In this document: piece by piece, positions 1-17,682 of the stretch
Layout of the letters: every line of letters starts with the position of its first letter
Numbering within the stretch: position 1 is the stretch's first letter
From: an uncultured Prevotellaceae bacterium
GTDB lineage: Bacteria > Bacteroidota > Bacteroidia > Bacteroidales > Bacteroidaceae
Direction: 5' to 3'
DNA length: 32,318 nucleotides
Assembly (NCBI GenBank): GCA_945828295.1
Contig: CALZQV010000009.1
Coordinates: 1-32,318 of the forward strand
Made by a program: the position numbers and the translations under genes
Notes under the pieces: model-generated
The model's database searches: none
What the model saw: only the letters and a program-made list of their open reading frames with translations
What the model was told of the DNA's origin: nothing

Positions 1-98
1 GTGCGCCACAAGAATGGCAAGACCCATAAAATAGTTATGTAGAGCGGCCCCTCGGTCCCTCTTTCCAAACGACGATATTTAGGCCTGAAATAGTCGAC

Positions 99-199
99 GC
101 ATCGTTGAGCCTCCCTCAACGCATCGTCGAGGCTCCGTCAACGCATCGTTGAGCCTCCGTCAACGCATCGTTGATGCTCCGTCAATGCGTCGACGAAAT
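99..199. repeat. Intergenic 22-bp tandem repeat array (array 1), about 4 units plus a degenerate fifth; consensus GCATCGTTGAGCCTCCGTCAAC
   Basis: Units start at 99, 121, 143, 165 and 187 (degenerate): gcatcgttgagcctccctcaac / gcatcgtcgaggctccgtcaac / gcatcgttgagcctccgtcaac / gcatcgttgatgctccgtcaat / gcgtcgacgaaatcgg. Perfect inverted repeat TCAACG-CAT-CGTTGA at 138-152 and 160-174. Confidence 0.95.
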
Positions 200-2754: not shown

Positions 2755-3720
2755 ATGGAAATCGTACTTTATTCTTTGGGAGTACTTGTGGGCTTGTGTG
2801 GAATCATCAAGGGTGCCGATTGGCTTGTCGACGGCTCCTCGGCCCTGGCTCGCAAGTTCCGCATTACAGAGATTGTGATAGGCCTCACCATTGTTGCTTT
2901 CGGAACCAGTATGCCTGAGTTCGTCGTCAGCCTGTTTGCAGCCCTGAAGGGCAGTGGCGACATGTCGGTGGGCAACATCATGGGTTCCAATATATTCAAT
3001 TCGCTGGTCATTCTGGGAGCCACGGCATTTGTCAGCACCGTCCCTGTCGGCCGACGAGCGTTGTATGTCGACATTCCCTGGAGCGCCCTTGCAGCCTTCC
3101 TTTGCTGGCTGTTCTGCTTCGATATGTTTTTGTGGCCCAAGTCGGAGAATGCGCTCACGCGTGTCGGTGCTATGGCTTTCCTTTTGGTGTTTGCCGTTTT
3201 TATGTGCTACAACTTCTGGTTGGCCCGTAACAGCCGCCGTGCAATGGAGGTTCAGGAAAGCACGGTGTCGAATACGACCATCTTTTTCCAAATCGTGGGA
3301 GGCCTCATGGCTCTGATTATCGGTGGTCGGGTGATGGTTGACTGCGCATCAAATGTTGCGAGTCTGCTTCACGTTTCGGAGGCCGTCATTGCGCTGACGA
3401 TTGTCGCTGGTGGAACCTCGGCGCCAGAGTTGGTGACAAGCATCATCGCTGCCCGTAAGGGAAAACTGGAGATGGCCATTGGCAATGCAATTGGCTCGAA
3501 TGTCTTCAATGTGTTCTTTGTGTTGGGGCTTGCCGGCATAATCACCCCCATGCACATTCAGAACATTAATCAGGTTGATTTGCTGATGTTTGTGGGAGGC
3601 CCTGTCCTGTTGTGGCTGATGGCCTTCCTCTTCCGCCGCATTAATAGATTGATGGGCGTGGTGCTGATTCTCGTCTACCTGTTTTTTTTGATGTATCTTG
3701 TGCGTCAGGTCACTGCTTGA
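2755..3720 (+). CDS. Calcium/sodium antiporter (CaCA family, YrbG-like)
   Basis: 321 aa; two alpha-repeat signatures, GTSMPEFVVSLFAALKGSGDMSVGNIMGSNIFN and GGTSAPELVTSIIAARKGKLEMAIGNAIGSNVFN. Confidence 0.95.
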   Translation: MEIVLYSLGVLVGLCGIIKGADWLVDGSSALARKFRITEIVIGLTIVAFGTSMPEFVVSLFAALKGSGDMSVGNIMGSNIFNSLVILGATAFVSTVPVGRRALYVDIPWSALAAFLCWLFCFDMFLWPKSENALTRVGAMAFLLVFAVFMCYNFWLARNSRRAMEVQESTVSNTTIFFQIVGGLMALIIGGRVMVDCASNVASLLHVSEAVIALTIVAGGTSAPELVTSIIAARKGKLEMAIGNAIGSNVFNVFFVLGLAGIITPMHIQNINQVDLLMFVGGPVLLWLMAFLFRRINRLMGVVLILVYLFFLMYLVRQVTA

Positions 3721-17418: not shown

Positions 17419-17682
17419 GCGCTGCCACAAAATATGCGTTGGGGCGCATCGTCTTCTGCAATGCGTCGCAAGGCTCAAAACAAAGCGTCGCGACGGCCCT
17501 TGCGAAGCGTCGCGACGGCCGATACATTGCGTCGCGTTGCCCTCCGCAAAGCGTCGTTGTTTTAGGGTTGAAATAATGGGCTTTTTTCGTCGACGCATTG
17601 ACGAGCCTCCGTCGATGCATTGACGAGCCTCCGTCGACGCATTGACGAAGCTCCGTCGACGCATCGATTGGAGCGGGCCGTT
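17419..17682. repeat. 22-bp periodic intergenic array (array 2), two diverged sub-families in one register
   Basis: Unit boundaries every 22 bp from 17419 to 17661. Sub-family 2a at 17463-17556 (GCGTCGCGACGGCC..., CGTCGCGACG palindrome twice). Sub-family 2b at 17595-17674 (GCATTGACGAGCCTCCGTCGAC, three near-identical units plus a degenerate one). Confidence 0.85.

Follow-up and report, generated by a model that had tools for sequence, protein, structure and literature searches.

The 22-bp tandem array near the left end of the window (the whole 32,318-nucleotide stretch of DNA analysed here) is, with near certainty, one copy of a dispersed, non-coding extragenic repeat, and comparison across related species suggests that it is the helical spacing of 22 bp, rather than the sequence, that these species keep. 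Dispersed extragenic repeats are a known kind of family; what is surprising is that a spacing of 22 bp stays fixed where the sequences are unrelated. Such repeats are usually recognised through a shared sequence, whereas here the sequence shifts from species to species and the spacing stays. The features concerned are as follows:

1–42, + strand: apparent 3′ end of a gene (...VRHKNGKTHKIVM*), cut by the contig start
84–102: left arm of an outer imperfect inverted repeat, CCTGAAATAGTCGACGCAT, 79% complementary to 185–203
93–192, + strand: Array 1, a 22-bp tandem array (TRF score 144, direct repeats, pattern matches), consensus GTCAACGCATCGTTGAGCCTCC
138–152: perfect dyad, TCAACG-CAT-CGTTGA, read from the sequence
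160–174: perfect dyad, TCAACG-CAT-CGTTGA, read from the sequence
185–203: right arm of the outer imperfect inverted repeat, ATGCGTCGACGAAATCGGG, pairing with 84–102
228–260: terminator-like hairpin in the gap between Array 1 and the TPR gene, with a 13-bp stem and a T-rich tail on the + strand
284–1726, − strand: gene for a TPR-repeat protein of 480 aa (ORF; Pfam TPR_8)
17480–17536, + strand: 22-bp array of a second type, unit ACAAAGCGTCGCGACGGCCCAT (TRF score 72)
17589–17668, + strand: array of the same family as Array 1, four dyads, unit GTCGACGCATTGACGAGCCTCC (TRF score 133, pattern match)

TRF gives Array 1 a period of 22 bp, 4.5 copies and 85% matches, with in-register units starting at 93, 115, 137 and 159 and a degenerate fifth from 181, in agreement with the four units plus a degenerate fifth reported in the preliminary description. 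That description placed the array at 77–199; a real, intergenic 22-bp array does lie there, but it starts at 93 according to TRF, and the region 77–92 is unrepeated, though it holds part of the outer inverted repeat at 84–102. The two dyads at 138–152 and 160–174 are perfect and separated by a GCCTCCG linker, as had been stated. A degenerate form of the unit matches eight times in the window, compared with 0.03 matches expected from shuffles. Because the 22-bp units are contiguous and unique spacers are absent, Array 1 is not a CRISPR array, and a 22-bp unit in an intergenic location is likewise not a protein-coding repeat; both possibilities had been dismissed beforehand, and we reject them too. 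The array also lies outside any convincing gene, as claimed: the sole overlapping ORF of at least 60 aa (160–423, − strand, 87 aa) crosses the terminator and enters the TPR gene, and is unconvincing. The outer inverted repeat brackets Array 1, and A/T-rich outward ends, roughly GATTTTCAGGCC, recur by eye at other arrays as a loose motif.

Array 1 appears to sit between converging genes. On its left, a + strand reading frame, of which the last 13 codons are visible, stops at 42 and runs towards the array; on its right lies the TPR gene. The arms of the intervening terminator-like hairpin extend to 18 bp when found as an inverted repeat (223–240/248–265). Its scored T-rich tail, CTCTTATTAT, is on the + strand and a T-rich stretch is present on the − strand also, so that the hairpin at 228–260 is probably bidirectional. 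No terminator was found in the sequence between the + strand gene end at 42 and Array 1, making transcription of the array from the left possible. Array 1 is thus shielded from the TPR gene but could be transcribed from the left-hand gene, and the earlier expectation that read-through would be limited holds for the right side, where the hairpin stands, but not for the left.

The evidence for dispersal comes from the 1.93-Mb rumen Bacteroidaceae MAG to which the window belongs (G000). With three or fewer mismatches the unit, GTCRAYGCATYGNYGARSCTCC, has 185 matches in this genome, compared with 0 for the reversed control, and the stretches examined around these matches contain at least 44 arrays with three or more in-register dyads, intergenic and in both orientations. 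The preliminary description had named a lack of other copies in the genome or its relatives as the outcome that would tell against it; the unit recurs at dozens of G000 loci, and in relatives too. Four dyads are present in 26 of the 44 arrays, five in nine, three in seven and six in two, a distribution of lengths and copy numbers that is biased by short-read assembly, since several G000 contigs end inside an array. The arrays appear to break such assemblies, which makes them relevant to metagenome work. By rough ORF calls they occupy convergent, tandem and divergent gene gaps alike. Unit identity is 82% within arrays compared with 76% between them, and 84% for adjacent units compared with 78% for non-adjacent ones. 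The G000 family thus shows dispersal between genes and local homogenisation. Its consensus changes from one species to the next, with the 22-bp period retained. Within the window, the array at 17589–17668 lies 22 bp from the stop codon of a Porin_10 gene (Pfam) and adjoins the second-type array at 17480–17536, the two sharing their period and differing in sequence. GCGACGC-type repeats resembling this second type flank other G000 arrays (for example at L088, L091 and L117).

In the G000 unit profile two dyad axes fall at 7.5 and 18.5, a distance of exactly 11 bp, with complementarity of 0.75 and 0.68 compared with a median of 0.23, and the conservation of the profile is mirror-symmetric about the dyad axis (r = 0.92). 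The 11-bp distance is not independent of the 22-bp period, since a symmetric unit in any tandem repeat gives two axes half a period apart. Among the pooled arrays described below, 17% of period-22 units have at least seven of eight dyad pairs, compared with 2% after shuffling; for intergenic units of other periods the values are 7% and 2% (mean-score z 5.7). Dyad symmetry is enriched in period-22 units, yet is not exclusive to them. In G000 the variable pairs 4–11 and 6–9 show less complementarity than is obtained when dyad halves are shuffled between arrays (z −3.0 and −4.8), and perfect 14-bp palindromes account for 1 of 182 dyads. This under-complementarity is consistent with a site bound by a dimer and speaks against a stem in RNA, for which the reverse would be expected. 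The stem-loop implied by the preliminary description is therefore present in the sequence and fold of Array 1, but the dyad halves are not kept complementary across the family, and an RNA hairpin with compensatory change was rejected for G000, the variable pairs of its 182 dyads being anti-complementary. In G123, by contrast with G000, pairing is kept in the stems at L356, L358, L361 and L362 (GGAG/CTCC, GCGG/CCGC and GTGG/CCAC); these variants, read by eye in few arrays, could be compensatory.

How far does the repeat extend beyond its own genome? The comparison drew on Bacteroidaceae/Prevotellaceae MAGs from rumen and gut. Across the 139 genomes that represent the genus, the G000 unit is clearly above background only in G133 (37 matches) and G120 (15), whose own forms of the unit have diverged (the G133 consensus is GTCGACGCGTCGTCGAGGCTCC). 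The closest relatives by TPR gene, G021, G145 and G001, have background or few matches; their near lack of the unit implies rapid gain or loss of the family, the behaviour expected of a selfish repeat. A spacing-based pattern finds other units with the same 22-bp step in species such as G052 (TCAACGTGTTGA core, 163 matches), G073, G058 and G092, and in other genera too, such as G359. In G336, of the same family and another genus, the reversed, uncomplemented control of this pattern gave 69 matches, so that G336 probably carries 22-bp dyad arrays of its own, built on a different unit.

The period itself was surveyed with TRF. In 658 kb of the genus, in stretches chosen independently of the G000 repeat, there are 19 intergenic arrays of period 22, compared with eight of period 21, many of them made of 7-bp-based units, and two of period 23. 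Six intergenic period-22 arrays were found in other genera of the family, whereas none of eight intergenic arrays from other families of the order (177 kb) has this period and 200 kb of E. coli K-12 holds no period-22 array. In 220 kb of G123, the most complete genome, the period is 22 in 11 of the 14 intergenic arrays, with 11 and 33 occurring once each, and these period-22 arrays comprise several unrelated unit sequences. When the non-redundant intergenic arrays of the genus are pooled, with the flanks of two chosen genes included, 55 of the 122 have period 22, compared with 15 for period 21, four for 23 and eight for 44. In the nearest relatives no array lies downstream of the TPR and porin orthologues, while 22-bp or 44-bp arrays, mostly unrelated in sequence, fill these slots in G087, G046, G092, G085, G110, G009, G074 and G136. 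A 22-bp array, TCATGTCGGTGTCATCGTATCG, also lies at about 2769479–2769536 of G163:C1, a single-contig genome from another genus, so that period 22 is not an assembly artefact alone.

Some arrays in G000, G133 and G120 end in a tail, consisting of a half unit, then approximately CAACG, 12–35 alternating purines and pyrimidines, and an A/T-rich stretch. The sequence of the tail varies and the alternation is kept, as expected for DNA that would be prone to adopt the Z form. About one third of G000 arrays carry a tail; Array 1 has none. In G000 and G133 together, tails face gene starts rather than ends by 17:4 (binomial p 0.007), whereas tail-less ends are divided 37:36 (Fisher p 0.023 for tailed compared with tail-less ends). 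In G120 the ratio is 1:3, including two overlapping loci, with no start bias, so that the bias seen in the other two genomes is provisional. A special position of the arrays relative to genes was rejected on the even division of tail-less ends and on the occupation of all three kinds of gene gap. Alternating tracts of 12–30 bases, varying in sequence, lie at one array end at L091, L092, L094, L101, L115, L119, L125 and L131 in G000, and at L133, L136, L142, L145 and L146 in G133. At L146 a purine/pyrimidine tract near 3593 on the reverse strand stands without an array.

Among known systems, the REP and BIME repeats of enterobacteria and pseudomonads share with the present family short, dyad-symmetric extragenic units in more than 100 clustered copies with a species-specific consensus, and a REP unit may measure as little as 22 nt (PMC2817692). 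Dispersed, high-copy extragenic dyad units are what we find here (185 matches, at least 44 arrays). The present units, however, run head to tail with a fixed 22-bp step, whereas those of REP/BIME alternate in orientation, and they are without the GT(A/G)G head that defines REP (PMC2817692). No Y1/RAYT transposase (PF01797) was matched in G000, G133, G120 or G052, genomes that are 82–97% complete, implying that, as far as incomplete genomes show, this is not a RAYT-driven REP; with neither the transposase, the head nor the alternating orientation, a REP–RAYT system was rejected.

Within the Bacteroidales, the BrickBuilt MITEs of Porphyromonas gingivalis are likewise dispersed and intergenic, with a tandem core (23 nt) and a tail, and have a leader in addition (PMC4596501); P. 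gingivalis W83 also has 41-nt 464/PgRS repeats and 22–23-nt direct repeats. The arrays described here differ in having 3–6 units of period 22, sequences that differ between species, no identified IS partner and no firm terminal inverted repeats, the shared ends amounting to a loose outward motif and the 79% inverted repeat to one copy; array-less orthologous slots do exist. PINSR of Prevotella intermedia/nigrescens, from a related Prevotella lineage, is also lineage-specific, intergenic and non-coding, with about 180 copies (PMC4755523), but by its description has a 188-bp unit. The tandem repeats of archaeal Borgs resemble the present arrays in that many, of independent sequence, arise quickly in one lineage; they differ in their varied unit length, perfect repetition and location, about half being in ORFs, and the parts of the account consulted report neither a fixed 22-bp step nor a dyad (PMC9879509). 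Plasmid iterons (17–22 bp, confined to one locus next to the gene for a replication initiator) were rejected in view of the dozens of dispersed loci and of the neighbours in the window, which are TPR, lipocalin-like, porin and Gfo/Idh genes. No similarity was found among 72,556 plasmids or in a phage collection, and a phage or plasmid origin was likewise rejected. A literature search outside subscription journals found no description of 22-bp intergenic arrays in Prevotella or the Bacteroidales.

Why do these arrays keep a 22-bp step? The best reading is that the array acts, if at all, on double-stranded DNA. We propose, tentatively and as somewhat short of probable, that the family is a BIME-like, species-specific 22-bp dyad repeat with a role in dimeric double-stranded-DNA binding or topology, the protein and topology part being a proposal drawn from sequence. 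A trans-acting dimeric factor that binds double-stranded DNA, such as a nucleoid protein or a topoisomerase-type activity, would recognise the dyads, whose axes, 11 bp apart, would recur on one face of the helix at roughly one per turn. Each array would then be a short stretch between transcription units that is bound by protein or absorbs supercoiling; local duplication of units in tandem, together with copying between loci, would maintain it. Since unrelated sequence families share 22 bp in one genome, one sequence-specific protein is insufficient to explain the period. A wider version, possible but doubtful, is that some factor in this Bacteroidaceae clade forces intergenic tandem repeats of whatever sequence into a period of exactly 22 bp. 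The factor could be an enzyme whose duplication of DNA proceeds in 22-bp steps, or a protein filament that selects dyads every helical turn, and unrelated arrays would then repeatedly arrive at this period, in some cases at one and the same gene junction. The constant spacing, with its dyad axes 11 bp apart, points to a process on double-stranded DNA in the Bacteroidaceae of gut and rumen, be it binding, duplication or topology. The arrays are many and short and lend themselves to assay, so that the factor behind such a process is open to direct search.

The chief rival to a dimer-binding dyad repeat is a neutral or selfish minisatellite, in which slippage or unequal exchange, helped by the dyad, produces functionless arrays and the 22-bp step is a bias of the replication or repair machinery. 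It accounts better for the unrelated sequence families that share a period in one genome, and it is favoured by the greater likeness of adjacent units, the solely intergenic location and the rapid turnover, in which the closest relatives have no array in a slot that in other relatives is taken by unrelated 22-bp arrays. It accounts less well for the mirror-symmetric conservation about the G000 dyad and for the dispersal of one unit over dozens of loci, since slippage alone does not disperse; nor does it lead one to expect the clustering of copy number at four dyads, assembly-biased as this is, or the bias of tails towards gene starts. We consider it doubtful on balance. A non-autonomous transposable element with inverted ends, a 22-bp core and a tail, mobilised in trans by a transposase, would supply that dispersal, in both orientations, and for the G000/G133/G120 family a MITE like BrickBuilt is possible. 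In keeping with it are the outer imperfect inverted repeat at 84–102/185–203, the recurrent A/T-rich outward ends, the common tail and the 23-nt core of BrickBuilt (PMC4596501). The outer ends are loose, however, the tail is on about one third of G000 arrays, an unsystematic look identified no target-site duplication, and one element family leaves the unrelated 22-bp units of many species unexplained; we regard this origin as unlikely.

An element acting as RNA, its arrays being transcribed within a 3′ or 5′ untranslated region and folding into one long hairpin or a series of them, seems very improbable. Array 1 folds better than its shuffles (z −5.2 as DNA, −5.4 as RNA) and may be read through from the left-hand gene, but self-complementarity is built into any tandem array of dyads and a good fold follows automatically. 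The variable dyad pairs of G000 lack covariation and are anti-complementary, convergent, tandem and divergent gaps all hold arrays, and a known structured RNA was rejected on 0 matches in the window (Rfam 15, gathering score).

Intergenic repeats of period 14 or 21 built from 7-bp units (for example TTAACCTTTCAACTTTCAACT) form a separate class that is common in the genus, with examples at L179, L180 and L190 and in other stretches of the genus.
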